A stretch of 64,000 nucleotides of DNA, taken from the NCBI RefSeq assembly GCF_000807775.2, contig NZ_CP047385.1, positions 3,534,001 through 3,598,000 of the forward strand. The letters are read 5' to 3'. Numbering within the stretch: the first letter of the stretch is position 1; every line of letters begins with the position of its first letter. Source of the DNA: Pandoraea fibrosis. Lineage in GTDB: Bacteria; Pseudomonadota; Gammaproteobacteria; Burkholderiales; Burkholderiaceae. A program made the translations under genes and the position numbers. The notes beneath the pieces are model-generated. The model was not told the DNA's origin and made no database searches. It saw nothing but the letters and a program-made list of their open reading frames with translations. This document shows positions 1-14,377 of the stretch, in pieces.

Positions 1-1053
1 CAGTCCGATACCGGGGGCATCGCTGACGCAGAACGTGTGACCATCACGGATCGACGACAGATCAATCAGCCAGGCTGCCGGGTCGACGTACAGATATTCC
101 ACCTGCATCGTGTCGCGGAAGGCCGTAGCGAGGTGCAGCGTCGCGAGGAAGCCCGGACCGAAGTAGGGGCTGTGCGGGAGCACGCCAAGCTTGGCCTCGC
201 GAGCGATGCCCATGATCTCGACGAACTCGGTGATGCCGCCGACCTTGCTCACGCTCGGTTGCAGATAGTCCACGGCGCCCGCCGCAGCGGCCTGGCGGAA
301 TTGCATGGCCGTGCACCAGTTCTCGCCAGCCGCGAGCGGTACACCCGGGCCGCGAAGGCTGGCCAGCGTGGCGAAGTCTTCCGGCGGGAAGATCGGCTCT
401 TCCAGCCATTCGATGCCGCCCAGCGCATTGAGACGTTGCAGATTGGCACGGGTCGTCTCCGCATCCCAGGCGCAGTTCACGTCGACGGAAATCGACGCGC
501 GGCCATTGACCGTTGCATGGCAGGCCTCGATCACCGGCATGGCGATCTCGTGCAGCTTGATATTGCGGAAACCTTCGGCGAGCGCGCGCTCGCAGACCGT
601 CGCTGCCACTTCCGGATGGCCATAGCGCGTCATGCTCGCGTACGTGGTGAGCGTGGCGGGCGCTTCGCCGCCCAGCAGCCGGTACAGCGGCACGCCGGCA
701 CGTTTGGCTTTCAGATCCCACAACGCCATGTCGACGCCGGAAATCGCGAACATCGTGATGCCATAGCGCCCGAAGATATGCAGCAGCTTTTGCGTCTGCC
801 GGGTCCAGGCCTCGACCGATTCAACCGTCGCGCCCTCGAGCAGCGGCTTGATGCGCGTCTCGATCACGCTGCGCGTGGCCTCGGGAACGAAGTAACCGAA
901 GCCTTCGCCCCAGCCGACGTTGCCGTCGGTATCTTCCACCCGGACCAGCACGGTCTCGAACGACCGCCAGGCCGACGGCGTGATGCCGAGCCCGGCGCCG
1001 CCGTCGTCGAACGGAATCTCGACGATGCGTGTCTGCAATGATTTGATTTTCAC
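1..1053 (-). CDS. Mandelate racemase/muconate lactonizing enzyme family protein (partial, C-terminus off window)
   Basis: An enolase-superfamily enzyme that abstracts a proton alpha to a carboxylate; here it probably acts on a sugar acid or aldarolactone. The frame is open for 351 codons and runs off the left edge. It carries an N-terminal capping domain and barrel motifs SVDVN (metal Asp), WLEEPI (metal Glu), AGEN (metal Glu), the SVSKVGG strand and a PHSPYFGPG loop. The GTG start overlaps the TGA of the upstream dehydrogenase (GTGA), so the two are translationally coupled. Neighbouring uronate-dehydrogenase-like and ketoglutarate-semialdehyde dehydrogenase genes suggest galactarolactone cycloisomerase or aldarate dehydratase activity. 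Family assignment is secure; the substrate is inference. Confidence 0.9.
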   Translation of the reverse strand, partial: MKIKSLQTRIVEIPFDDGGAGLGITPSAWRSFETVLVRVEDTDGNVGWGEGFGYFVPEATRSVIETRIKPLLEGATVESVEAWTRQTQKLLHIFGRYGITMFAISGVDMALWDLKAKRAGVPLYRLLGGEAPATLTTYASMTRYGHPEVAATVCERALAEGFRNIKLHEIAMPVIEACHATVNGRASISVDVNCAWDAETTRANLQRLNALGGIEWLEEPIFPPEDFATLASLRGPGVPLAAGENWCTAMQFRQAAAAGAVDYLQPSVSKVGGITEFVEIMGIAREAKLGVLPHSPYFGPGFLATLHLATAFRDTMQVEYLYVDPAAWLIDLSSIRDGHTFCVSDAPGIGL

Positions 1054-1850
1054 GACGGCACCCCGACCACCAGCGGCTTCGGCACATACGGCCCGCCCAC
1101 ATGATCGGGGCCGCTCGAGGCCGGCATCTGCGCGCGCGGCACAAATTCGGGCGACAGGTTGTCGCTGGCATCGTCCTGCGGCACGTAGCCCAGCTCGACG
1201 GCGCGACGGTTCTCGAAGAACGGGGCGGGACAGCGCGACACGCCGTAGACCACGTCTGCGCCGATATCGGCATGCTCCAGCCCGATGCGAACGAGCTGGG
1301 CCATGTCGCGTCCGCTCACCCAGATATGCTGACGGCGGCCATCGGCCACTTTCAGATCGGCATTGCCGATGCGGATCGACAGGCTCTTGATGCCGTGACG
1401 ATGCGAGTACAACGCACAAGCCGCCTCGCCGAAGACCTTGCTCAGGGCATAGAAGCCATCGGGCGCGACCGGGGCGTCGTCACCCGCAAAGCCGTCGATG
1501 CGATGGTGGCCGACGGTGTGGTGGCTGCTGGCGAAGATGAAACGCGAAATGCCGAATTCCCGGCAGGCGTCGAGCAGATAGAGCTGCGCGCGGTAGTTGG
1601 CGTCGAGCGTGGCTTCGAACGTGATGTCGAGGCTGTAGCTGCACGCCAGATGCAGGATGCCGTCGACGCCTTGCGCGGCGCGACGCACGGTATCGGCTTC
1701 GGTGATGTCACCGACGATCACGCTTTCGTTTTCCGCGAGATCGAGCGGTTCGCGCAGGTCCATCAGGCGCAGATGATAATGCTCGCGCAGCCACGGCCGT
1801 ACACGGGCCGCCACGCCACCGGCAGCGCCGGTCACCAGCAGGGTTTTCAT
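1050..1850 (-). CDS. NAD-dependent epimerase/dehydratase family, uronate-dehydrogenase-like
   Basis: An extended short-chain dehydrogenase of 266 residues, the usual size for uronate dehydrogenases. It starts with a Rossmann motif variant (VTGAAGGVA near residue 6) and contains VGDITEAD for the adenine pocket, FASSHHTVG carrying the catalytic Ser region, and YALSKVFGE with the YxxxK catalytic pair near residue 136. Uronate dehydrogenase oxidises a hexuronate to an aldarolactone, which fits the enolase-superfamily gene that follows with a 4-bp overlap and the semialdehyde dehydrogenase upstream. An AGGAAA ribosome site sits about 10 nt before the ATG. Other sugar dehydrogenases of this fold cannot be excluded. 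Confidence 0.85.
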   Translation of the reverse strand: MKTLLVTGAAGGVAARVRPWLREHYHLRLMDLREPLDLAENESVIVGDITEADTVRRAAQGVDGILHLACSYSLDITFEATLDANYRAQLYLLDACREFGISRFIFASSHHTVGHHRIDGFAGDDAPVAPDGFYALSKVFGEAACALYSHRHGIKSLSIRIGNADLKVADGRRQHIWVSGRDMAQLVRIGLEHADIGADVVYGVSRCPAPFFENRRAVELGYVPQDDASDNLSPEFVPRAQMPASSGPDHVGGPYVPKPLVVGVPS

Positions 1851-1989: not shown

Positions 1990-2286
1990 TCAGGCCGTCG
2001 TGTAGTCGACTGCCACCCACTCGAAGTAGGGTTTGAGGTCTGCCACCAGCGCCTGATGCGCCGGGTGCGGCAGATAGCGGGCTACCGCATCGGCGTCGTC
2101 AAACACCGACTCCAGCAGGTAGTCCCAGCAAATCGGACGATCTAGTTCGTTCGCCGACACACGCCATTCACGCACGAAATCGATCTCGCGCTCGAGGTTG
2201 CGCATGCGAACGATCAGCGCCTGCTCGCGTTCGAGATCCTTCTCGATGTGCGGATGGCGGCGGAACATCACGACGTGTTTCATCAT
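1990..2286 (-). CDS. Dabb (stress-responsive alpha/beta barrel) domain protein
   Basis: A 98-residue single-domain protein beginning MMKHVVMFRR, the typical opening of the Dabb/EthD-like dimeric barrel family. The body contains WRVSANELDRPICWDYLLES and ends YFEWVAVDYTTA. The ATG overlaps the stop of the aldehyde dehydrogenase (ATGATGA), so it belongs to the same mRNA. An upstream reading extension exists to 2442 but is antisense-like sequence without family similarity, so the short start is preferred. Relatives sit in sugar-acid and aromatic catabolic operons with poorly defined roles, so no function is assigned. Confidence 0.8.
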   Translation of the reverse strand: MMKHVVMFRRHPHIEKDLEREQALIVRMRNLEREIDFVREWRVSANELDRPICWDYLLESVFDDADAVARYLPHPAHQALVADLKPYFEWVAVDYTTA

Positions 2287-3725
2287 GCCGGCAGCCCTCC
2301 ACGACGGGCGTCGAGATACCAGTCCGGCGCGTCCTGCAGGGCCACGGGACGCAGGAAACGCTCGATGGCCGCATAGCCGACCGACGTCGACTGCGGGTGC
2401 GTCGATGCGGGCCACGGGCCGCCATGCTGTTGCGCGTGGCACACGGCAACCCCCGTCGGGACGCCGCCGAACAACACGCGTCCGCCGATCTGCTCAGCCG
2501 CTGCGGCCAGTGCACGGTGCTGCGCCGTGTCGTCGAGCGCGCCCCAGAGCGTGACGGTCAGCGTGCCTTCGACCGCGGCGAGCACGCGCAGCAGGTCGTC
2601 ATGTGACTTGACGCGCACCACCAGGGCGGCGGGGCCGAACATCTCCTCGCGCAGCGCGGGCTGGGCCAGGAAGGCGTCGGCATCGATCTCGTACAGGCGC
2701 GGGGCCGGCGTCGCGGTATCGGCGCCGGTGCTCGGCGCCAGTCGGGTGCGCACACCCGTTTGCGAGGCAACGTGGGCGCTGGCGGCTTCAAACCCGCTGC
2801 GTATGGCGGGCGTGAGCATGCGGTGCGGGGTCTGGCTGGCCAGCGCGGCGGCCAGGTCGACGACGAACTGTTCACCTTCCTTGTCGTCCGACACGAGCAG
2901 CAGGCCCGGGCTCGTGCAGAACTGACCGCAGCCCATCGTGATGGAAGCGGCCAATGCCTTGGCCGGGGCCTCGGTGCCATCGGCCAGGGCGGCGGGCAAC
3001 ACGACCAGCGGGTTGATGGAGCCCAGCTCGCCGAAGAACGGGATCGGTCGCACACGTGCATTGGCGGCGCGCCAAAGGGCTACGCCGCCCTGATAGGAAC
3101 CGGTGAAGGCGACCGCAGAGACGACCGGGTGGCTCACCAGATGGGTGCCGCCTTCGCGCGAGGTCTGGCCGACGAAGGTCAGCACGCCTTCGGGCAGGCC
3201 TTGTGCGCGCACGACGTCGGCCGCCAGCGCAAACACGCGGCGCGACAGTTCCGGGTGGCCGGCGTGCGGCTTGACGATGACGACGCAACCGGCGGCCAGT
3301 GCCGCGGCCGTATCGCCGCCGAGCACCGAGAAGGCGAACGGGAAGTTGCTGGCGGAGAACATCGCCACGGGCCCCAGCGGTGCGAACACGCGGGTGAGGT
3401 GCGGGCGACCGGCGGGCGGTGCGCCGGCGACGGCCGCATCGTCAATCTGATGGAACGGTACGCCCCGCTCGACATCGTCGGCAAAGCCGCGCAGTTGATA
3501 GGCAGTGCGGGCGAGTTCGCCCGTCAGGCGGGCCGTACCGAGACCGCTCTCTTCGTCGGCGAGGGCGATCAGGGCAGGGGCTTGCGCTTCGAGCGCGTCG
3601 GCCAGTCCGCGCAGCAGTCGTGCGCGGGTCGACGCGTTCGAGGCGCCATACACCGGCTGGGCGGCGTCGGCGAGTGCGACAGCGTGATCGATGGGCGCGA
3701 AGGCGCCGTTATCCAGTTGGCTCAC
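2283..3725 (-). CDS. Aldehyde dehydrogenase, 2,5-dioxovalerate (ketoglutarate semialdehyde) dehydrogenase type
   Basis: A 480-residue NAD(P)-dependent aldehyde dehydrogenase, the last step (2,5-dioxovalerate to 2-oxoglutarate) of oxidative hexuronate and pentose routes. It shows SASNFPFAFSVLGGDTAAAL, the VKPHAGHPE cofactor strand, the FTGSYQGG loop, the ELGSINP motif with the general base Glu, and MGCGQFCTSPG with the nucleophilic Cys. These are hallmarks of the KGSADH subgroup rather than generic betaine-type enzymes. The GTG start overlaps the preceding TGA (GTGA); a longer frame to 4373 is antisense to the SnoaL gene and rejected. Coupled translation with both neighbours supports one operon. 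Confidence 0.9.
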   Translation of the reverse strand: MSQLDNGAFAPIDHAVALADAAQPVYGASNASTRARLLRGLADALEAQAPALIALADEESGLGTARLTGELARTAYQLRGFADDVERGVPFHQIDDAAVAGAPPAGRPHLTRVFAPLGPVAMFSASNFPFAFSVLGGDTAAALAAGCVVIVKPHAGHPELSRRVFALAADVVRAQGLPEGVLTFVGQTSREGGTHLVSHPVVSAVAFTGSYQGGVALWRAANARVRPIPFFGELGSINPLVVLPAALADGTEAPAKALAASITMGCGQFCTSPGLLLVSDDKEGEQFVVDLAAALASQTPHRMLTPAIRSGFEAASAHVASQTGVRTRLAPSTGADTATPAPRLYEIDADAFLAQPALREEMFGPAALVVRVKSHDDLLRVLAAVEGTLTVTLWGALDDTAQHRALAAAAEQIGGRVLFGGVPTGVAVCHAQQHGGPWPASTHPQSTSVGYAAIERFLRPVALQDAPDWYLDARRGGLPA

Positions 3726-4174
3726 GATTGCGGCTCCAGATGGTAGCCGCGGCCACGGTAGTCGAAGGCGACCAGCTCGTTGATGGCCACCGACTTGTCG
3801 GCCGGCGATGCGTAATAGGCGCGAATTTCCTTGATGCGACAGGTGTCGGCGTCGAACACGTACCACTCGTCGCCGCGCAGTGCCGTGCCTTGCCTGGACT
3901 TCCAGTGCGTCCATTCGATGACGGCTTCGTGGGAGTCGTGCGAGACAAGAATCTTCTCGATGGTCCACTGCGAGCCCAGTTCGGCCACGCACCATTGCCA
4001 CTTGCGGGCGATGGTGCCGGCGCCAACCCACGGCACCTCCGGCAGGCCGGCCGGGAAGTAGTGAACGGCGTCGGGCGTGAAGCACGAGACGAGCTTGTCG
4101 TAGTCGGCTTCGTTGCAAGCGTCGAAGTAGCGGCGAATCAGCGCCGCATATGCTGCTTGGTCGATGTTTGCCAT
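3722..4174 (-). CDS. SnoaL-like nuclear-transport-factor-2 fold protein
   Basis: A 150-residue protein of the SnoaL/NTF2-like alpha-beta cone fold, recognisable from the N-terminal helix (AALIRRYFDACNEADYDKL), the FTPDAVHYFPAG strand and a TIEKILVSHDSHEAVIEWTH sheet ending near YYASPAD. Members are isomerases, dehydratases or hydrolases, or lack a known activity. The ATG at 4174 has an AGGAG site 10-12 nt upstream. It is the first gene of the SnoaL-KGSADH-Dabb unit, and an IclR-type palindrome lies about 120 bp upstream (4294-4310). Its exact contribution to sugar-acid breakdown is unknown. Confidence 0.8.
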   Translation of the reverse strand: MANIDQAAYAALIRRYFDACNEADYDKLVSCFTPDAVHYFPAGLPEVPWVGAGTIARKWQWCVAELGSQWTIEKILVSHDSHEAVIEWTHWKSRQGTALRGDEWYVFDADTCRIKEIRAYYASPADKSVAINELVAFDYRGRGYHLEPQS

Positions 4175-4293
4175 CGAGGGGGTCTCCTGGGTGGGCGCGC
4201 GACGCACCTGTGCCGCGCGCATGGGAACACGTCGTGAGTGTAGAAGCCGCATCGTCGGGTGTCGGCCTCCCCAAGAGGCGCGGCATCCACTCA

Positions 4294-4310
4294 GTTCCAG
4301 CATCTGGGAC
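4294..4310. promoter_or_regulatory. Candidate IclR-family operator, copy 3
   Basis: GTTCCAGCATCTGGGAC is a palindrome with 5-bp arms and a 5-bp spacer. It matches the site at 7015-7031 (read on the minus strand, GTTCCAACATGTGGGAC) at 15 of 17 positions. It lies in the 174-bp spacer upstream of the SnoaL-KGSADH-Dabb unit. Confidence 0.6.
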
Positions 4311-4348
4311 CCTTTGCGGCACGAGGTACGCGGACGTGATTTCCCGCC

Positions 4349-5248
4349 TTATGGGCGCGGTGCGGCCACCCATTGCAACCGGGTCGTGGCCTGTGCCGAC
4401 TCACCAGGCCCCAGCACCAGCATTCCCGTTTCAGTTTCGCCTTGTGCGGCCAAATTGAAGCCGTTGGCCACGTGGCTGACCGGCTCGACGCAAAGATAGG
4501 GCGCGCCGCGCGGCACGAAAGCGATCAGATGGGTCAGCGGCGCGTCGGCGTGCATGGCGAGGTGTCCCGAATGGCGGGATACGATGGCCGGGCCGGTCCA
4601 TTCGCTCGCATAGATGACGCAGTCGGCGGTTTGCCAGTCGGCGGCGCCGAGTTCGGTGGGGGCGCTCTGCTGCTGCCGTGCGCCGGTAGGCACGAACTTG
4701 TCGTCGAGCTGCCAGTGGGTGGATGCGTCGAAGCGGATGCCGGCGTGGTCATCGGCCACCAGAAACGGATGCCATCCAAGACCGGCCGGCATCGGCCTGG
4801 TGTCGGCGTTACGTACCGAGAGGTCGACGTGCAACGTAGCGCCGTCGAGGCGGTAGCCGAGGCTGGCATCGAAGGCCCACGGCCAGTGTTCGCCGTCATA
4901 GTGCAGCGTCAGTATGGCGTGCGTAGCGTCATGTGACTCGACCTCCCATGCACACAGATGGCTGTTGCCGTGCAGGGCGTTCGGCAGATCGAGCGGGTGC
5001 GGCGGCAGGTCGTGCGTCGCGCCGTCGAAACGGAGCCGGGCGCCAGCGATGCGGTTGGAGTACGGGATCAGCGGATAGGCGCCGGCTTTGGGCCAACCGT
5101 GCGCGGGCGCTTCCCATCGGTCCAGTGGCACGATCAGGTCGGTGCCGTTGGCGACGGTGCGCAGATGCGTCAGTCGGCCGCCAAGTTGCGGGGCGATGCG
5201 CGCGTACAGCACATCGTTGGAAAGCGTAAGGCGAAATGCGTCGTTCAT
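4349..5248 (-). CDS. Aldose 1-epimerase family protein
   Basis: A 299-residue beta-sandwich mutarotase of the galactose mutarotase-like superfamily. Visible landmarks are LGGRLTHLRTVANG near the start, YPLIPYSNRIAGARL (substrate-pocket Asn-Arg), LPNALHGNSHLCAWEV (catalytic His region), GLGWHPFLVADD and a C-terminal LCVEPVSHVANGFN carrying the catalytic Glu. It probably speeds anomer interconversion of the sugar or uronic acid feeding the pathway. ATG at 5248 is chosen because the alignable sequence begins MNDAFRLTLSND; upstream residues are low-complexity. Same strand and order as the other catabolic genes, 77 bp after the regulator gene. Confidence 0.88.
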   Translation of the reverse strand: MNDAFRLTLSNDVLYARIAPQLGGRLTHLRTVANGTDLIVPLDRWEAPAHGWPKAGAYPLIPYSNRIAGARLRFDGATHDLPPHPLDLPNALHGNSHLCAWEVESHDATHAILTLHYDGEHWPWAFDASLGYRLDGATLHVDLSVRNADTRPMPAGLGWHPFLVADDHAGIRFDASTHWQLDDKFVPTGARQQQSAPTELGAADWQTADCVIYASEWTGPAIVSRHSGHLAMHADAPLTHLIAFVPRGAPYLCVEPVSHVANGFNLAAQGETETGMLVLGPGESAQATTRLQWVAAPRP

Positions 5249-5325: not shown

Positions 5326-6909
5326 TCAGGTGTCGATCCGCAGGCGCAGCAGCCTGCCGGACAGCGGTGCGCTCGCCAGCGATTCGATCGGCTGGTGATT
5401 GCGGTCGCTGGTGATGAACAGCGAGGCGTCGGTGTCGCTGCGCACGAAGGCGAGGCCGGTCGGGGCGGCGACGGGCAGGCTGACGATGCGATCGACGGCC
5501 CCGTCGGCGTTGAAGCGCATCAGGCTCCAGCCATCGCGCAAGGCGACCCAGATGCCGTCGCGATCGTCCAGCGCAATGCCGCACAGCCGGCCGGAGCCGG
5601 GTGTCATCGAGGCGAAGCGGCGTACGTTGCTGCTACTGCGCTGCAGGGTGTAGATCGCACCGGCCGACGAGCTGATGACGTAGGCGGTCGTGCCGTCGGC
5701 AGACCAGGCCATGGCGTCAATGGTCTGCTGGAACGGCCAGCGCGCCTCAAAGCGTTGTGCAGCGTTGATGAACCCGAGATGGCCGGCGCCGTCGCGTTGC
5801 AGCCATGCCCAGGTCATGCCTTGAGCGTCGGTACACAGCAGCTTCATGGCGGGGTCGTTCCAGGCGCTGACGCCTTCCTGCGTCGATACGCTGCCGTCCG
5901 CCGCGATGTGCAGGCAACGAGCTTCCTGAGTGACGAGCAGCCCTTCCGGTCGCAGTTGCATGCCGGTGATCGGGCCGTCCAGTTGGGCGACGATGCGGTT
6001 GTGGGTGCCGTCGAATGCGTACACCGCAGGCGCCAGCGTATCTGCCCAATACAGCGAGTTCTGTGCCGACGCCCAGAGCGGGAAGGCGCCGTGGAAGGCC
6101 CAGCGATCGCCGGCGGGGGTGACTTCCTCCTGTTCCGGCGCGACGCGCGGCGCTTCGAGTTGCGCGCCGACGCGTCGCGCGGCTTCGGCGAGTTCCGGGC
6201 CGAGCAGTTCCAGCCGCTGCATCGACATCCGGTAAGCCGGGCCGGCCACGCTCAGCGCGCCACGAACCCGACCTGCCATGTCGACGACCGGCGCGGCGAC
6301 GCAGCGCACGCCCAGCACGATCTCCTCGTCGTCGATGGCGTAGCCGCGTGCCGAGGTGATGCGCAATTCGACCTGCAGCCGACGCCGATCGGTGATGGTG
6401 CGCGGCGTGAGCGCCGTCATGGTAACGCTGCGCAGCAGGGCGTCGCGTTCCTCACGGGACATGCGCGAGAGGATGGCCTTGCCTTGGCCGGTGCAGTACA
6501 CGGGCTTGCTGCGCCCGAGTGCGGCCGAGGAGCGTTGGGAATGCGCGCCGTCGCAACGTTCGAGCGAAATGACCTCGTTGCCGTCGAGTGCTGCCAGGTA
6601 GGTGGTCTCGCCGGTCAGGTCCCGTAGCGCACGTAGTTCCGGCGTGGCGGCGGCGACCAGGTCCGGCATGAGATAGGAGTTGCGCACGAGTTCCAGATAG
6701 CGGAACCCCAGGCGATAGACGCGGTGACTGGCGTCGCGTCGCAGCAGGCCGTGTTCGATCAGTGTTGCGAGAATGCGGTAGAGCGTTGTTTTGGGAAGTC
6801 CTGCGAGCTCGAGCAACTCGGCATTCGTCATGCCCTGAGGGGATGCGCCGACCAATTCGAGCACCGTCAGGGCCTTGCCCAGCGATGCGGTTCCGTCTCC
6901 GATTGCCAC
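5326..6909 (-). CDS. IclR-type transcriptional regulator fused to an SMP-30/gluconolactonase-like beta-propeller
   Basis: A 527-residue fusion. Residues 8-70 form the IclR winged helix (TNAELLELAGLPKTTLYRIL), about 80-250 the IclR effector domain (YCTGQGKAILSRM, ARGYAIDDEEIVLGVRCVAA). Residues 265-520 are an SMP-30/regucalcin-type propeller. Compared with active lactonases, the metal ligands are replaced: GEGP is GAFP (274-277), the NG(L) Asn is Asp at 398, and the PDG Asp is Cys at 443. I infer a retired lactonase used for ligand sensing. The GTG start follows AAGGTGG, and that ribosome site lies inside a palindromic operator (6912-6926), suggesting autoregulation. It heads the catabolic operon and is divergent from the RraA-like gene. 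Confidence 0.9.
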   Translation of the reverse strand: MAIGDGTASLGKALTVLELVGASPQGMTNAELLELAGLPKTTLYRILATLIEHGLLRRDASHRVYRLGFRYLELVRNSYLMPDLVAAATPELRALRDLTGETTYLAALDGNEVISLERCDGAHSQRSSAALGRSKPVYCTGQGKAILSRMSREERDALLRSVTMTALTPRTITDRRRLQVELRITSARGYAIDDEEIVLGVRCVAAPVVDMAGRVRGALSVAGPAYRMSMQRLELLGPELAEAARRVGAQLEAPRVAPEQEEVTPAGDRWAFHGAFPLWASAQNSLYWADTLAPAVYAFDGTHNRIVAQLDGPITGMQLRPEGLLVTQEARCLHIAADGSVSTQEGVSAWNDPAMKLLCTDAQGMTWAWLQRDGAGHLGFINAAQRFEARWPFQQTIDAMAWSADGTTAYVISSSAGAIYTLQRSSSNVRRFASMTPGSGRLCGIALDDRDGIWVALRDGWSLMRFNADGAVDRIVSLPVAAPTGLAFVRSDTDASLFITSDRNHQPIESLASAPLSGRLLRLRIDT

Positions 6910-6926: not shown

Positions 6927-7014
6927 TTCAAGCGCCGCGTGCGGCGCGGGTGTCGTTTTTTGATGATTACTTTAGCAGTAGGATCGATTCCATCGCGACG
7001 TCACTGTCGCGGAA

Positions 7015-7031
7015 GTCCCACATGTTGGAAC
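7015..7031. promoter_or_regulatory. Candidate IclR-family operator, copy 2
   Basis: GTCCCACATGTTGGAAC, arms inverted with one mismatch and the same 5-bp spacer as copy 1. It lies 36-52 bp upstream of the RraA-like gene start, a promoter-proximal position in the divergent spacer. Confidence 0.6.
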
Positions 7032-7066
7032 TTTGGCTGATTTATTTTTATTGACAGGGAATTGAC

Positions 7067-7861
7067 GTGACCATCCACCAATATTCGGACGGACTCGACC
7101 GCGAGATCGATCGCGGCGTGCATGTGAGTGACGAGACGCTGGCGCGCCTGGCGAAGGTCAGCAGCGGGTCGCTGACGACGCAGCTCTTCAAGCGGGGCTT
7201 TCGTCAGCCGGCGCTGGTGGGATTGCGCGCGCTGAACCATGAGGTCAAGCCGTTTGCCGGGCGGGCGTACACGATGCGCTTCATTCCGGCGCGAGAGGAC
7301 ATCGACACCTACGGCACGATGACCACCAAGCCGAACGGCGACAACCTTCAGTGGCAGGGTGTGGAGCAGGTGCGTGAGGGGGATGTGCTGGTGATCGACA
7401 GCCGCGACGATCCTCGTGCGGCGTCGGCGGGCAATATTTTGGTGACGCGTCTGTTGGCGCGCGGTGCGCGTGCGATCGTCACCGACGGTGCGTTGCGGGA
7501 CGGCTCGGAAATCGCGGCGATGTCGCTGCCGGCGTATGCGCGTGAAGTGACGGCGACGACGCGCATTTCGTATCATCACGTGGCGGATCTGCAGGTGCCG
7601 ATCGGGTGTGCGGGTGTCGCGGTGTATCCCGGCGATGTGATCGTCGGTGACAAGGATGGTCTGACCGTCGTGCCGGCGCATCTGGCCGAAGAGTTGGCTG
7701 AAATCTGCGAGAAGCAGGACGACATCGAGCACTACCTGGCGATGCGCATTGCGGGTGGCGAGCCGCTGTGGGGCGTGTATCCGCCGAGCCAGCAGTCGTA
7801 TGCCGACTATGAAGCGTGGGTGGCCGCCGGACGTCCGGCACTGGAGAAGAAGTTCGGTTAA
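7067..7861 (+). CDS. RraA-like / HMG-aldolase family protein
   Basis: A 264-residue member of the RraA/4-hydroxy-4-methyl-2-oxoglutarate aldolase family. The core includes LVIDSRDDPRAASAGNILVT, ARGARAIVTDGALRDG (the GGxxRD-like turn with catalytic Arg-Asp) and the PGDVIVGDKDGLTVVPAH segment typical of the group. Enzymatic relatives are divalent-metal lyases acting on oxo-acids, often inside sugar-acid operons; true RraA is an RNase E inhibitor of about 160 residues. The larger size and context favour a catabolic lyase. GTG start with AGGGA about 8 nt upstream. Divergent from the IclR fusion and probably controlled by it; a hairpin terminator follows. Confidence 0.85.
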   Translation: MTIHQYSDGLDREIDRGVHVSDETLARLAKVSSGSLTTQLFKRGFRQPALVGLRALNHEVKPFAGRAYTMRFIPAREDIDTYGTMTTKPNGDNLQWQGVEQVREGDVLVIDSRDDPRAASAGNILVTRLLARGARAIVTDGALRDGSEIAAMSLPAYAREVTATTRISYHHVADLQVPIGCAGVAVYPGDVIVGDKDGLTVVPAHLAEELAEICEKQDDIEHYLAMRIAGGEPLWGVYPPSQQSYADYEAWVAAGRPALEKKFG

Positions 7862-8607: not shown

Positions 8608-9219
8608 TTATGTTTTGCGCGGCAAGACCTCAAGTACATAGGCAACAAGTTTGCTCAGACTGGCGGTCAGGGGCTCCGAGGCGGTATCGACCACGCAATC
8701 TGCTCGCTCAGGTGCTTCGTAAGGTGCACTGATGCCAGTGAACTCCCCGATTTCCCCTGCACGCGCCCTTTTGTACAAACCTTTGGGATCGCGTGCCTCG
8801 CATGTTGCGAGGTCAGCCGATACATGGATTTCGTGAAATGCTCGCTTACAGCGCAAACGTGCCTGATCACGGTCCACACGATACGGCGAGATGAACGCCG
8901 TAATGCAGATCAGTCCTGCATCCGCGAACAAGGCAGCGACTTCGCTCACGCGGCGAATGTTCTCTGTCCTGTCTTCCGGACTGAAGCCCAAATTAGCATT
9001 CAGACCGCCGCGAATGTTATCGCCGTCGAGCACGTAGCACGAATACCCCAACTGCATCAGCGTCTGTTCCAGCGCCATCGCCAAGCTGGATTTTCCCGAC
9101 GCCGACAAGCCGGTGAGCCATAGCACAGCACCATCGTGGCCGTAGTGAACGTGACGGTCCGTGGCGGTGAGCGCATGTGCGGTTACGCTCAGGTTGTGAG
9201 GATGAGATGGCACACTCAT
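8608..9219 (-). CDS. cysC: Adenylyl-sulfate (APS) kinase
   Basis: A 203-residue APS kinase that phosphorylates adenylyl-sulfate to PAPS, the universal sulfonate donor. Walker A is GLSASGKS (residues 37-44), followed by DGDNIRGGLNANLGFSPEDR for substrate binding, the FISPYR signature and KGLYKRARAGEIGEFTGI near the lid. Length matches stand-alone CysC. The ATG sits 1 bp after the stop of the sulfotransferase gene, so the two are co-translated. No cysD/cysN or PAPS reductase gene is nearby, which points to a PAPS supply dedicated to the adjacent sulfotransferase rather than to general assimilation (inference). Confidence 0.95.
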   Translation of the reverse strand: MSVPSHPHNLSVTAHALTATDRHVHYGHDGAVLWLTGLSASGKSSLAMALEQTLMQLGYSCYVLDGDNIRGGLNANLGFSPEDRTENIRRVSEVAALFADAGLICITAFISPYRVDRDQARLRCKRAFHEIHVSADLATCEARDPKGLYKRARAGEIGEFTGISAPYEAPERADCVVDTASEPLTASLSKLVAYVLEVLPRKT

Positions 9220-9220
9220 G

Positions 9221-11329
9221 TCAAAGTCCCGCATCACCAGATTCGGCAATACCAAGTGCCGTCAGCAGCGGCCCCAGTTGCGATGCGTGGCGACGCCAGC
9301 GCCCTTTCGATGTTGCGTAAATCGGTTGCCGTACCTGGCTCACGCTCGCCGTGCGCACCGCGCGGCGCGTCTTGTGGAAACTGAGACAGGCGTCGTCCCA
9401 CGGCAGATCGACAAAGGCAATCAGGCGCCGCGCCTCGCGCTCCAGATGATCCACTACGTCTTCGTAGTCGACCTCAAGAAAACGTTCCGGCGGCAAAACC
9501 TTGCGTAAGTTCTCCATGAACATCTGATAGTCGCGATGGAAAGCCCCCAATTCATCAAGACGATAGGCAAACATCTGCTCGCCCGCAAAGTGCTTGCTGT
9601 AACACGACAGGCAGGTATCCACCGGATCACGCCGGCAATGGATGATGCGCGCGCCCGGCAGAATTAACGGAATCGCACCGGCATACAGGAAGTTGGCCGG
9701 CAACTTGTCAACCACCCGCAGTGCATCCGGAGCGAGGCCGTCGATACGGGACAAGTAGTCACGACCGACCCGGGCAAAATCCCCCCTGCCCCAGTGCGTC
9801 AGCGCATCGGGAAATGGTCCGGCGCTTTCGAGGGCGTGGCGCAAGGCGCTCAGCTCTCCGGCACCGTGAATGCCAGGGTGCGATGCCAGGATCTGCTCCA
9901 CAAGCGTTGTGCCCGAACGCGGCATCCCAATAATGAACACGGGGCGTTGCGAAGCCGTGCCGGCATCGGCGAATTTCGCCATCAATTCCGGCGTAAAGAT
10001 CGCAGCGACTTGTCGCATCCAGGCACTGGCAGCATCGGCATCGTAATCGAACGTGGCTCGTTTGATGCCGTTCCCCTTGTGGAGATGGAAAAACGCCCGA
10101 TCCGAATCACCGGTATCGAGATACGCTTTGCCAAGCGCGAAATGCAAACTCATCTGATCGACGATCGTCGGCTGTATCGTTCGCGCTAGCGCCGCTTCCA
10201 TCGCAACGATGTCGCTATCGTCGCCGCGATACGTCTTGGTGTCGGCACGCGCTGCCATCACCCGCACCGAGCCGGGAAACCGCTCAAGCGTGCGCTCAAA
10301 CGCAGCAATGGCTGCCTCCTTGTCACCAATCTCCATCAACAATGATGCGCGTGCAACGAGCGCTTCTTCAGCAACCGTTCCCGGCAAAGCTGCCGCGCGA
10401 TCAAAAGACGCGATCGCGTCGTCATGCTGTCCTAGCGCTTGCAAAACCTGCCCGAGCACCTTATGCCCGCTCGCGCTATCGGGGGCGAGACTCACTGCCT
10501 GACGCGCGCAGGCGAGCGCGTCCTGAAAGTGATCGTCATGCATCAACAATTGCGCGCGTGCCGACAACGCCCCTGCGTGCTGCGGCGCGAATGCGATAAG
10601 GGCGTCGACCCAGCGACCGGCGTCGGCACGGCGCATGCGTGACATCTCGATCTGGGCCAGATTGAAGTAGGCATCGGCCAGTTGTGGGTTGATCTCGATG
10701 GCTCGCGACGCAGACGTTATGGCTTCGTCGAAGCGGCCAAGATCGTTCCACAGCACCGCCAGGTTGCAGTGCGCTTCAGCATAGTCAGGCCGCAACGCCA
10801 GCGCTCTCAGATAGCTGGCGTGTGCTTGCTCCAGCGCGCCCGTGTGCTTTTGCGTATTCGCAAGATTATTGTGCGCTTCAGGGCTATCGGGAAGCAACGA
10901 GACGACACGTTTCAGGCATTCCAGAGCAGCGTCAAATTTTCCGCTTTCCTGCAGGATGATGCCCAGATTGTTCCAAGCCGCAACGAGCTGCGGCTCTTGG
11001 TCCACCGCCCGTCGGGCGGCTTGTTCTGCTTCCGCCAGCAACCCCTTCTGGCGACACATTTCAGCCAGATTGCTGCAATACGTTGCGGGCGCAACGGGCG
11101 ACAGACAAGCCTTACGCAAGTAATCGATGGCCAGATCGAGCAAGCGATGAGCATGGGCAATCAGGCCCATCAAATGCAGGGCATCCGGTTGCTCGGGCAA
11201 GACTTGCAAGACGCGCAGACAGCATTCTTCAGCCTGACGCGCCTGTCCCGCATTCCAATGCGCATAGGCCAGATTCAGTGCCTCACGAATGGTGATCTGT
11301 TGAGCATCAGGGTTGTGGTTCTTATTCAA
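9221..11329 (-). CDS. Tetratricopeptide-repeat sulfotransferase
   Basis: About 702 residues. Roughly residues 20-330 are TPR repeats (for example AHNNLANTQKHTGALEQA, ADAYFNLAQIEMS), and the C-terminal half is a PAPS-dependent sulfotransferase. The 5'-phosphosulfate loop is FIIGMPRSGTTLVEQI near residue 461 and the 3'-phosphate site is CRRDPVDTCLSCY near 563. TPR domains of this class usually recognise protein acceptors. I chose a TTG start at 11329 behind GGTGGAG; the next upstream ATG would be 11437 but adds unconvincing sequence. It is coupled to cysC and diverges from an autotransporter, which may be its acceptor (inference). Confidence 0.88.
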   Translation of the reverse strand: MNKNHNPDAQQITIREALNLAYAHWNAGQARQAEECCLRVLQVLPEQPDALHLMGLIAHAHRLLDLAIDYLRKACLSPVAPATYCSNLAEMCRQKGLLAEAEQAARRAVDQEPQLVAAWNNLGIILQESGKFDAALECLKRVVSLLPDSPEAHNNLANTQKHTGALEQAHASYLRALALRPDYAEAHCNLAVLWNDLGRFDEAITSASRAIEINPQLADAYFNLAQIEMSRMRRADAGRWVDALIAFAPQHAGALSARAQLLMHDDHFQDALACARQAVSLAPDSASGHKVLGQVLQALGQHDDAIASFDRAAALPGTVAEEALVARASLLMEIGDKEAAIAAFERTLERFPGSVRVMAARADTKTYRGDDSDIVAMEAALARTIQPTIVDQMSLHFALGKAYLDTGDSDRAFFHLHKGNGIKRATFDYDADAASAWMRQVAAIFTPELMAKFADAGTASQRPVFIIGMPRSGTTLVEQILASHPGIHGAGELSALRHALESAGPFPDALTHWGRGDFARVGRDYLSRIDGLAPDALRVVDKLPANFLYAGAIPLILPGARIIHCRRDPVDTCLSCYSKHFAGEQMFAYRLDELGAFHRDYQMFMENLRKVLPPERFLEVDYEDVVDHLEREARRLIAFVDLPWDDACLSFHKTRRAVRTASVSQVRQPIYATSKGRWRRHASQLGPLLTALGIAESGDAGL

Positions 11330-11644
11330 AGATGCTCCACCGCAAAACGCGAAAAGTCGGGCATTCTCATTGAAGATGGCGTGAAGGTATTCGTGACAAG
11401 CCTCGTCGACCCGTCGTCTGCAATGCATTTGCATCATCTACGGCATTGCAAGTCCCCAGAAAATCGTAGCCGAAGGCGCATTCGGTCGTCAAAAAAAGCA
11501 TGTTTCGCCTGCCAGCACAGTTGCAGTGACGACGGCCTTTCGTCCCGTTTCGGGAATCCTTGAGTTTTCGGGAGAATCAATTGATACTCCTCGTCGAAAG
11601 TTGAATTGTCCGACAAAAATATTGAAAAATTATCAAAAGAACAA
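11330..11644. promoter_or_regulatory. Divergent spacer between the sulfotransferase and autotransporter genes, with a near-palindrome
   Basis: This AT-richer 315-bp spacer holds two symmetric elements: TCCCGTTTCGGGA (11543-11555) and GGAGAATCAATTGATACTCC (11571-11590), a 20-bp palindrome with one A:A mismatch pair and a perfect ATCAATTGAT core. The latter ends 54 bp before the autotransporter ATG and is a plausible operator. Nothing else recognised. Confidence 0.45.
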
Positions 11645-14377
11645 ATGGGCCGATCAAAAAAACAACCTCGCTTTTCTGCGGGCGAGCAGACCTGTCTTGC
11701 GCTATCGCTGACGGCCGCATGTGCAACATTGATTGCTACCCCGGCAAAAGCGGTCACGGTCACGGGGACCGCCACTGTCACTGGCTCGACGTCCAACGTG
11801 TTCTGGAACGGCATCGGGACGATGACCGTCAATAGTGGCGTTCTTGTCACCGGCACACCAGTGTTCAGCATTAGCACCACGAACGGCACTCTGCAGAACA
11901 ACGGCACGCTTAGTGGTTCCACTGGGGTTGCCAATACAGGCTTGCTTACTACCCTCAACAACGGGAACGGCGCAGTCGGCGGTTCAATTACCGGCGGCAC
12001 AGGCATTGACAATGCCGCGAATGGCACGATCATCACGCTGCACAACTTCTCCGGCAGCGAGATCACCGCCGTTACCGGCATCAAGAATAGCGGCACCATC
12101 GGTACGGTAACCAATGACAGTGGCGGTTCGATATCCAACGGCGCAACGGGGATCTTCAACTATTCAGGCGGCACGATTGGCACGCTGAGCAACAGTGGTT
12201 TGATTAGCCAGGCTGGTTTCGGGATCAACAATAACAACGCCGCCATCACCACGCTGCAGAACGGCGCAGGCGGCACCATCAGTGGCGTCACCGCGATCCA
12301 GAACAATAATGGCAGCATCGGGACGCTGACCAACACGGGGTTCATCAATGCCCATAGCGCGGGTATCGCCAACCTCGGCAACAGTACCATTGCCATACTC
12401 AGCAACGGCGGCTTAATTGACGCCCAGACGGCCATCTCCAACGACGCCGCGATTGGTACGTTGACCAACACGGGCACTATCAAGGGGACCCAAGCTGCGA
12501 TCTCCAACACCGGCACCATCAACGTCATCGCCAACGATGGCGGCGTCATTTCCGGCAAGATAGTCAACACAACGCAACCCTTGAGCCTGACCGGCGGTAG
12601 CGGAACCACCTTCGGCACCCTCACCGGCGCCGGCAGCGGAATCGACGCCGGCAATATCGGGCTGATCACCAATACGGCGTCAAACCTGACCTTCAGCGCC
12701 GGCAATCAGTTGCTCAACGACCATATCAACGTGGGTGGCAACACCGTGTTCAATGCAGGCGGTACGCTGCAGGTCAACAACGCGATCACGATCACCGGCA
12801 ACTACACCCAGAACGCCGGCGCAACACTCAACATCGGCGTGGCGGACGGGGCGGTTGCCACCGGTGTCGCCAGTGCCGACAGCGGCTACGGCCGGCTAGT
12901 CGTGTCGGGCGCAGCGACTTTCGACGCCGGCGCCAGCGTCGCGCTGAAAAAGCTCAATAGCTATGGCTTTGCGCAGGGACAGCGCTTTGTTGTGGCACAG
13001 GCGAGTCACGCCAGCACGAATTACAACGCAGGATCGCTGAACTATTCCGCTGACGGCTACACCGGCACATATTCGGGCGCCAGCGTGGTCGATAGCGACG
13101 ACAACACCAAGACCGATCTTGTCGTCACCCTGGCAGCGCCAGCCACTGGTACAAATCCGGGCGGCACCGACCCTGGCTCGACGCCAGGCGGTTCCAGCCC
13201 TGGCGGCACCAGCCCCGGCACAAGTCCGGGCGCGACCAGTCCGATCATGCGGGCAACGACGCCAAACGCCATTTCCGCGTTGTCGGGATTGTTTCGTTAT
13301 GGTGGCACCAACGCCGACATGCTCAACATGTTCAATGCTGCTGTCGCCCTCGATTCCGCAGGCGACGCCAATCGCGCTGGCGCTCAATTGAGTCCGGCGG
13401 CAATTACCGCTTCGGCCGTCCAATCAGCACAGGCGACAACGCAAGCCGTACTCAATATCGCCGCATCCCACATCGACATCCTGCGCTCGGCGCAAAGCGC
13501 CGGCAGTGGTGTGGCAACCGGCGAGTCTGCCAGTGATATTGCCCTGTGGGGACAGGCGTTCGGCGGTCAGGCAAATCAGAGCGGTCGCAGCGGCGCCAGC
13601 GGGTATCGTGCCAGCTACGGAGGCCTTCTCATCGGCGCCGACACTGCGCTCAACGATGCGTGGCGTGTCGGCGGCTTATTCAACTATGCAGATACGTCGG
13701 TCGATGGCCGCGATGACAGCACAGGTAGCTCGGCACGTGTCAAAGCGTATGGACTTACCGGATATGGCGGCTATACGGCGCAACGCTGGTACGTGAATCT
13801 CGCCAGCGGCATCGTCTGGCAAAAGTACGACACCCATCGCAGCGTCGACTACACGGGTTTCAGCGGTAACGCTGCCGGTCGATTCAACGGTGCGCAATAC
13901 ATTGCGTCGGCGCAGGCGGGCTACCCCATCAAACTGGACGCCGTGACGACCCTCACACCGATCGTCGGCCTGACCTACAGTCGCATGACGCAGGATGCCT
14001 ATACGGAAACCGGCAGCGTCGCCGCGTTGCGTGTCAATTCCTCCAGTGCCTCGTCCTTGAAGAGCGAACTGGGTGCAAAACTGGCGCGCACATTCACGAC
14101 TTCGTATGGCGAAATCACGCCGTCGATTCAACTGAGCTGGCGACATGAATACCTCGATACCAACATACAGTCGATCGCTAACTTCGCGGCTGACACCAGC
14201 GGCGCTACCAGTTTCATTACGCAAGGGGCGCTGGCTAACCGCGATACCGGCGTAATGGTGTTGGGGGCGGCACTGGCACGCAGCCAGAATCTGACGCTCG
14301 TGGCGCGTTATACCCTGGAGGCCTCGCGAGGCTATACAGCACAAACGGCAGATCTGCGGCTGCGCTATCAATTCTGA
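11645..14377 (+). CDS. Type Va autotransporter with beta-helix passenger and outer-membrane barrel
   Basis: About 910 residues. An N-terminal signal segment (LALSLTAACATLIATPAKA) leads to a passenger of short Gly/Asn/Thr/Ser-rich repeats such as GTIGTLTNTG, typical of a right-handed beta helix. A low-complexity Pro/Gly/Ser/Thr linker follows (about 500-535, repeats like PGGTDPGSTPGG). Residues from about 632 form the barrel, opening DIALWGQAFGG and ending LRLRYQF with the C-terminal Phe needed for outer-membrane insertion. The ATG at 11645 is chosen; an in-frame TTG at 11606 would add 13 residues. It diverges from the TPR-sulfotransferase and is followed by a strong terminator. Its ligand or surface role is unknown. 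Confidence 0.9.
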   Translation: MGRSKKQPRFSAGEQTCLALSLTAACATLIATPAKAVTVTGTATVTGSTSNVFWNGIGTMTVNSGVLVTGTPVFSISTTNGTLQNNGTLSGSTGVANTGLLTTLNNGNGAVGGSITGGTGIDNAANGTIITLHNFSGSEITAVTGIKNSGTIGTVTNDSGGSISNGATGIFNYSGGTIGTLSNSGLISQAGFGINNNNAAITTLQNGAGGTISGVTAIQNNNGSIGTLTNTGFINAHSAGIANLGNSTIAILSNGGLIDAQTAISNDAAIGTLTNTGTIKGTQAAISNTGTINVIANDGGVISGKIVNTTQPLSLTGGSGTTFGTLTGAGSGIDAGNIGLITNTASNLTFSAGNQLLNDHINVGGNTVFNAGGTLQVNNAITITGNYTQNAGATLNIGVADGAVATGVASADSGYGRLVVSGAATFDAGASVALKKLNSYGFAQGQRFVVAQASHASTNYNAGSLNYSADGYTGTYSGASVVDSDDNTKTDLVVTLAAPATGTNPGGTDPGSTPGGSSPGGTSPGTSPGATSPIMRATTPNAISALSGLFRYGGTNADMLNMFNAAVALDSAGDANRAGAQLSPAAITASAVQSAQATTQAVLNIAASHIDILRSAQSAGSGVATGESASDIALWGQAFGGQANQSGRSGASGYRASYGGLLIGADTALNDAWRVGGLFNYADTSVDGRDDSTGSSARVKAYGLTGYGGYTAQRWYVNLASGIVWQKYDTHRSVDYTGFSGNAAGRFNGAQYIASAQAGYPIKLDAVTTLTPIVGLTYSRMTQDAYTETGSVAALRVNSSSASSLKSELGAKLARTFTTSYGEITPSIQLSWRHEYLDTNIQSIANFAADTSGATSFITQGALANRDTGVMVLGAALARSQNLTLVARYTLEASRGYTAQTADLRLRYQF

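Follow-up and report, generated by a model that had tools for sequence, protein, structure and literature searches.

A metal-less SMP-30 propeller fused to an IclR regulator at a predicted sugar-acid gene cluster of Pandoraea fibrosis suggests an enzyme turned into a sensor

Organization of the locus

The region considered here, referred to as the window, is a 64,000-nucleotide stretch of the Pandoraea fibrosis genome. Within it, a gene encoding a 527-residue fusion protein heads a run of minus-strand genes for an epimerase, a SnoaL-like protein, an aldehyde dehydrogenase, a 98-residue protein that by eye we take to be Dabb-like, a uronate-dehydrogenase-like protein and an enolase-superfamily enzyme, with an RraA-like gene being divergently oriented (Table 1). 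The enolase-superfamily member scored against both talarate/galactarate dehydratase (2pp0) and 4ggb, which is presumably a galactarolactone cycloisomerase. To the left of the window, porin-like and MFS-like genes were recognized upon reading of the ORFs. Uronate dehydrogenase generates an aldarolactone, and the uronate-dehydrogenase homologue of the cluster, as judged from its sequence, would make a lactone. The first-pass annotation of this DNA had presumed that the neighboring genes produce or consume sugar lactones, a view supported by the presence of this homologue, of the aldose epimerase and of the enolase-superfamily enzyme.

Reading of ORFs elsewhere in the window pointed to an adenylyl-sulfate-kinase-like sequence (8608-9255, minus strand), adjacent to one encoding a long TPR protein whose C-terminus is sulfotransferase-like (9221-11437, minus strand), and to a 923-residue autotransporter-like protein rich in Asn, Gly and Thr and with a beta-barrel-like end (11606-14377, plus strand).

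Table 1. Positions, in window coordinates, of the fusion gene, its parts, neighboring genes and predicted operators.
Feature	Position	Strand	Basis or match
Enolase-superfamily (MR/MLE) dehydratase or cycloisomerase; gene ends 45 bases beyond the left edge of the window	1..1056	-	
Uronate-dehydrogenase-like NAD enzyme	1050..1850	-	E 7e-33 to uronate dehydrogenase 3rft, 3e-38 to 3ay3
98-residue small protein	1990..2286	-	
Aldehyde dehydrogenase	2283..3725	-	PF00171
SnoaL-like protein	3722..4174	-	PF12680
Second predicted operator, within the operon, after the stop of the epimerase gene (4349) and before the start of SnoaL (4174)	4292..4312	.	Differs from the long pattern at 3 positions and from the core at 1
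Aldose 1-epimerase	4349..5248	-	PF01263
IclR-SMP-30 fusion regulator, 527 residues	5326..6909	-	Reported ORF
Six-bladed SMP-30 propeller without metal ligands, residues 259-527	5326..6135	-	
Cys443 in place of metal ligand Asp204 (regucalcin)	5581..5583	-	
Asp398 in place of metal ligand Asn154 (regucalcin)	5716..5718	-	
Ala275 in place of metal ligand Glu18 (regucalcin)	6085..6087	-	
IclR effector domain IclR_C, residues 83-247	6169..6663	-	PF01614 and structural matches
IclR winged helix-turn-helix, HTH_IclR, residues 9-59	6733..6885	-	PF09339
Predicted operator AAGTCCCACATGTTGGAACTT, in the intergenic region separating the regulator gene from the divergent RraA gene	7013..7033	.	Perfect to the GTYCCA-N5-TGGRAC pattern
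Divergent RraA-like (aldolase-like) gene	7067..7861	+	PF03737

Architecture of the fusion protein

The first-pass annotation had described the product as an IclR regulator joined to an SMP-30 propeller in a single chain of 527 residues, a description borne out by the minus-strand ORF and by its Pfam domains. Both the HTH domain (PF09339; 57.4 bits, cut-off 22) and the effector domain (PF01614; 141.7 bits, cut-off 24) were detected above the Pfam cut-offs, as in a member of the IclR family, and none of the eight NCBIfam IclR models listed reached its cut-off with this protein. An SGL domain was assigned by Pfam to residues 277-501, and a six-bladed propeller matching PF08450, as in the SMP-30/gluconolactonase fold, is present. 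In the predicted model of the protein, the six-bladed propeller appears intact, with the arrangement of the domains being poorly constrained (pTM 0.58). The IclR_C domain is full length (142 bits) and its structural matches are IclR-family structures, some with ligand. As such, an effector could bind there, in which case the propeller may provide a second input or play a structural role.

Distribution of IclR-SMP-30 fusions

A search for proteins of this domain architecture, as envisaged in the first-pass annotation, revealed not only the lineage to which the window protein belongs but also a second, metal-keeping fusion lineage. The propeller search yielded 116 proteins, comprising fusions or fragments of the metal-less kind (P0001-P0109), one fusion with an intact metal site (P0111) and six stand-alone propellers (P0110 and P0112-P0116). 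When P0111 served as query, 774 proteins were obtained with E values no higher than 1e-30, and the 120 best of these were taken. Several of the metal-keeping fusions bear the NCBI name SMP-30 protein, and those members of the P0111 group that are named belong mostly to the Alphaproteobacteria.

Most of the best 80 of 114 loci from genome contigs contained fusions, and the organism names at these 80 loci included Burkholderia, Paraburkholderia, Caballeronia, Cupriavidus, Variovorax, Paracidovorax, Achromobacter, Pseudomonas, Bradyrhizobium and others; by organism names, the fusion is retained in Burkholderiales, Pseudomonas and Rhizobiales. The distribution is nonetheless patchy, with 7 of 249 genomes from the taxonomic family of the window organism containing a match at 1e-50. 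Among these seven, the matches in G322 and G758 are, judging by their identities, metal-keeping, and that in G816 is interrupted. None of the 20 same-genus genomes listed contained a match at this threshold, suggesting that the cluster is patchily distributed, perhaps through mobility or frequent loss. Copies of the fusion that are broken, split or truncated were seen in L027 (a second copy), L045, L048 and L077, partly in metagenome bins.

Loss of the metal site

In agreement with the first-pass annotation, the three metal ligands of the propeller are replaced in the window protein, with Ala275, Asp398 and Cys443 standing where regucalcin has Glu18, Asn154 and Asp204. That this replacement is a peculiarity of one protein was ruled out, since the loss is lineage-wide, with none of the three ligands being kept in any of the 175 rows of the metal-less lineage (107 protein clusters and 68 loci, with some proteins appearing in both). 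In the second IclR-SMP-30 lineage, 116 rows contain all three ligands and 10 more have lost one, with Lys replacing Glu in seven rows, Asn replacing Asp in two and Ala replacing Asp in one. The partial-loss rows are P0137, P0139-P0143 and P0151; P0189 and P0200; and L103. It is as if inactivation of the metal site recurs inside the metal-keeping lineage, in three further kinds of partial loss. These counts of 175, 116 and 10 rows leave out L077, L097, L100, L107-L109, L110 and L111 as copies or fragments, as well as the split or truncated copies L045, L048 and L076, and still include both L001 and P0001, each being the window protein, along with other protein-cluster/locus duplicates. Reduction at 62% propeller identity left 56 metal-less rows. 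Among stand-alone propellers (37 rows, one protein appearing twice), Asn154 and Asp204 are kept in all 37 rows, and the first ligand place is occupied by Glu in 31 rows and by a gap in three.

At the Asp204 position, Ser is the commonest residue of the metal-less lineage (112 of 175 rows) and Cys is found in 13 rows; on this alignment, Cys at that position is not a family feature. The Asn154 position is occupied by Ser (41), Gln (40), Asp (26), Thr (23), Glu (18) or Ala (12) across the same 175 rows. Given this variability, no single new pocket is conserved, a point that counts against reading the propeller as a sensor.

The window protein does not contain the Glu/Asn/Asp metal triad of an active SMP-30 lactonase, nor does it contain the substrate-residue pair Arg101/Asn103, which occurs together in none of the 175 rows, with the alignment of blade 3 being less certain. 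The first-pass annotation had allowed for metal ligands conserved elsewhere in the pocket, and no conserved replacement trio was seen in the pocket columns inspected. Near-constant acidic residues do occur elsewhere in the propeller, namely Glu395, present in 157 of 175 rows and replaced by Gln in the window protein, and Asp/Glu509, present in 174 of 175 rows. These acids, together with the purifying selection described below, would fit a propeller that is still an enzyme, be it metal-free, binding metal via other residues or catalyzing a new reaction. With no replacement trio in evidence, the Arg101/Asn103 pair gone throughout and the propeller diverging fast, unlike that of the metal-keeping lineage, such retained catalysis is considered improbable.

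Divergence, selection and the propeller pocket

At approximately 70% identity between their IclR halves, members of the metal-less lineage share 41% identity between their propellers, as compared to 70% in the metal-keeping lineage (partial-loss rows included), where the two halves keep pace. Propeller dN/dS values of 0.041-0.226 were obtained in 18 of the 19 close pairs examined, with the nineteenth being saturated. By this measure, the metal-less propeller is under purifying selection despite its fast divergence, and selection probably keeps it for something other than the old chemistry. Were the propeller a decaying leftover of an enzyme fusion, fast divergence and the broken or split copies noted above (the second copy in L027, L045, L048 and L077) would be accounted for; the low dN/dS values, the intact six-bladed model and the retention of the fusion in three bacterial groups are at odds with decay, which is accordingly disfavored as very improbable.

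The wall of the regucalcin pocket includes Cys16 and Ile202 (PMC3551927). Of the 175 rows of the metal-less lineage, 129 have His at the Cys16-equivalent position (His273) and 115 have Arg at the Ile202-equivalent position; by this mapping, His273 and Arg441 are predicted to line the pocket. All 116 rows of the metal-keeping lineage have Leu, Ile or Val at the former position, and the latter is occupied by mixed residues, most often Lys (37 of 116). The mean charge over six mapped pocket positions was +0.98 in the metal-less lineage (56 rows), -1.65 in stand-alone propellers (37 rows) and -0.73 in the metal-keeping lineage (11 rows). The gap between the metal-less and stand-alone propellers was reached by 3 of 5000 random column sets; with the two acid-ligand columns removed, the remaining gap was reached by 487 of 5000. 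As such, most of the gap reflects the loss of two acidic ligands, and any gain of positive charge beyond this is at most suggestive. Fourteen residues of the propeller are invariant, these being mostly Gly and Trp, along with two Asp, Ala, Pro and Arg.

The composition of this invariant set, the faster divergence of the propeller and the variable Asn154 position, the latter two of which fit a domain making few specific contacts, are in line with the IclR effector domain being the sole inducer sensor, with the propeller serving as a structural or assembly part or as a dock for another protein, such as a pathway enzyme. The full-length IclR_C domain, matching IclR-family structures some of which hold ligand, likewise favors a sole sensor in the IclR half. 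A scaffolding role alone would, however, leave unexplained both why a lactonase-type propeller is fused in each of the two lineages and why the mapped pocket position so often carries His273, where all metal-keeping rows have an aliphatic residue (Leu, Ile or Val). This explanation is therefore deemed rather unlikely, yet is the one to be taken more seriously than retained catalysis or decay.

Ancestry of the two fusion lineages

The metal-less propellers form one clade in the propeller tree (support 100), as do the corresponding IclR halves in the IclR tree (support 99). In an IclR tree from which four broken or truncated members (the L027 second copy, L045, L048 and L076) and the long branches L007, L159 and L171 were left out, and L164 was set aside, both fusion lineages grouped together relative to 39 non-fused IclR proteins (support 90). 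In the first IclR test, where these four members and L164 were all counted as non-fused, a single fusion clade was rejected (p-AU 2.7e-06). L164, the fortieth non-fused IclR protein, has a long branch and groups with the metal-keeping lineage (support 93), such that either the propeller was lost there or two fusions took place. At L178 (5792-6739 and 8361-9908), this non-fused IclR gene lies some 1.6 kb from a stand-alone SMP-30-like gene containing the GEGP motif; the two are possibly an unfused version of the IclR/propeller pair.

In a free search of the propeller tree, the two lineages lay apart, each beside stand-alone propellers, and when held together, the likelihood was 0.89 higher (p-AU 0.537). 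A single fusion, with the metal site lost afterwards in one lineage, would be the economical account, and the sequence data are consistent with such a single origin.

Conserved neighbors and predicted operators

Among 76 sources, the families found around the regulator were MR/MLE (55), RraA (53), ALDH (46), SnoaL (43), MFS (36), epimerase (31) and uronate-dehydrogenase-like (21). These clusters were defined by single linkage, include a few non-intact fusion loci and mix paralogues in the case of MR/MLE, ALDH and MFS; being drawn at the superfamily level, the counts are not of orthologues. The SnoaL and uronate-dehydrogenase-like genes of the window itself were missed in the clustering because over-long ORFs overlapped both. 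In a profile search of flanking ORFs of at least 150 codons, an additional three-ligand propeller was found only at L029 among the counted metal-less loci, as well as at L045, an uncounted split copy. With such propellers being rare in the flanks so searched, a lactone might persist.

The core of the palindrome, which, like the full pattern, was picked after the upstream regions had been inspected, lies upstream of the regulator in 49 of 67 metal-less loci (that of the window included), as compared to 2 of 46 other IclR genes and none of 6 metal-keeping loci; 200 shuffles in which two-base blocks were moved gave a mean of 0.32 and a largest value of 3. The palindrome as written is absent upstream in 18 of the 67 metal-less loci, including all nine Rhizobiales loci counted. 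A near-match with three mismatches is found in the metal-keeping loci L092 and L112.

Across 11 Burkholderia-group loci (205 kb), 18 exact GTYCCA-N5-TGGRAC sites were found, of which 10 are upstream of the regulator, six at or just after the end of the epimerase gene, one upstream of a transporter and one upstream of a displaced RraA gene. A site at the place of the one within the operon of the window is present in 6 of 11 relatives. Upstream of the transporter, the palindrome is exact in L009 only, has one mismatch in L013, L015 and L019, and has two in the own genome of the window. The window contains three matches with at most three mismatches, versus 0.23 expected, with the third (18058) lying elsewhere. 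In the genome as a whole, the sole perfect match is that at 7014-7032; with up to two mismatches allowed, 46 places were found versus 38 for a reversed control, hardly an enrichment, and six of the 46 fall within the 9.1-kb cluster, three of these inside genes.

Judging from these sites, the fusion regulator probably controls the adjoining cluster via palindromes at the divergent promoter and within the operon.

Discussion

The fusion architecture, the lineage-wide loss of the metal ligands, the purifying selection acting on the propeller, the conserved palindromes and the conserved neighbors are all observed here, and together suggest, at the level of sequence, an enzyme turned into a sensor for the adjoining sugar-acid genes. 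The reading we favor, and hold to be fairly probable, is that of a one-component regulator serving a catabolic cluster for sugar acids of the uronate or aldarate type, in which the metal-free propeller reads a pathway compound alongside the IclR effector domain. Here, the IclR half would bind the GTYCCA-N5-TGGRAC palindromes that lie both at the divergent promoter and within the operon. The propeller would derive from a metal-dependent lactonase that no longer holds metal and has presumably given up lactonase activity, and its pocket would bind a pathway compound, most likely a lactone or sugar acid provided by the uronate-dehydrogenase-like enzyme. Through coupling between the domains, the propeller would then pass its ligand state to the IclR half. 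The first-pass annotation had proposed a one-component sensor with a dead enzyme domain reading the pathway intermediate, an interpretation that is partly supported by the present analysis.

A broader and more tentative reading, which we consider possible but on balance doubtful, is that one ancestral IclR-lactonase fusion took two roads, leading on the one hand to a protein that is both regulator and lactone hydrolase, and on the other to a metal-less regulator with two pockets, where side-chain charge replaces that of the metal and two pathway compounds are read, via the IclR domain and the propeller. If true, the metal-keeping fusion would be an enzyme able to erase its own signal.

The IclR-SMP-30 architecture is already visible to automatic annotation, in the form of protein names, and no paper addressing it was found in the literature searches made. 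For members of the metal-less lineage, names assigned automatically, such as 'sugar lactone lactonase YvrE', are probably wrong. At the same time, an uncharacterised sugar-acid cluster is now provided with a predicted operator and regulon.

A palindrome at a divergent promoter is usual for the IclR family. Like regulators of that family, such as Thermotoga IclR (1mkm), KdgR and PcaR, the window protein has a full HTH and effector domain and a palindrome at the divergent promoter; unlike them, it contains an extra propeller of 270 residues. Relative to the SMP-30, regucalcin, gluconolactonase and xylonolactonase family, it is without the three metal ligands and the Arg101/Asn103 pair and is fused to a regulator. 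The closest documented logic would appear to be that of the Nudix regulators NrtR and AraR. Bacteroides AraR and other NrtR-family Nudix regulators combine a DNA-binding domain with an enzyme-derived domain that has lost its catalytic motif and binds a small sugar-type effector, with the ligand and structures being known for AraR (PMC4666351). The window protein similarly joins a DNA-binding domain to an enzyme-derived domain that has lost its metal ligands and would bind a small effector. It differs from NrtR and AraR, which have a Nudix fold and another DNA-binding domain, in having an SMP-30 propeller and a second effector domain, IclR_C; with no Nudix match among the Pfam families listed for the window protein, the likeness is one of analogy only.

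Also related are the metal-keeping IclR-SMP-30 fusions of the P0111 group, which share the same architecture and whose IclR halves group with those of the metal-less lineage at the support of 90 given above. Unlike the window protein, these keep the metal site in 116 rows; at all six loci viewed, their neighbors are ABC transporter genes and other MR/MLE genes, and the core palindrome is found in 0 of 6 of their upstream regions. Enzyme domains turned sensors are already known from NrtR and AraR; in the present case, nature offers a single regulator architecture both with and without the metal site, such that the change from enzyme to sensor is amenable to testing by comparison of natural proteins.
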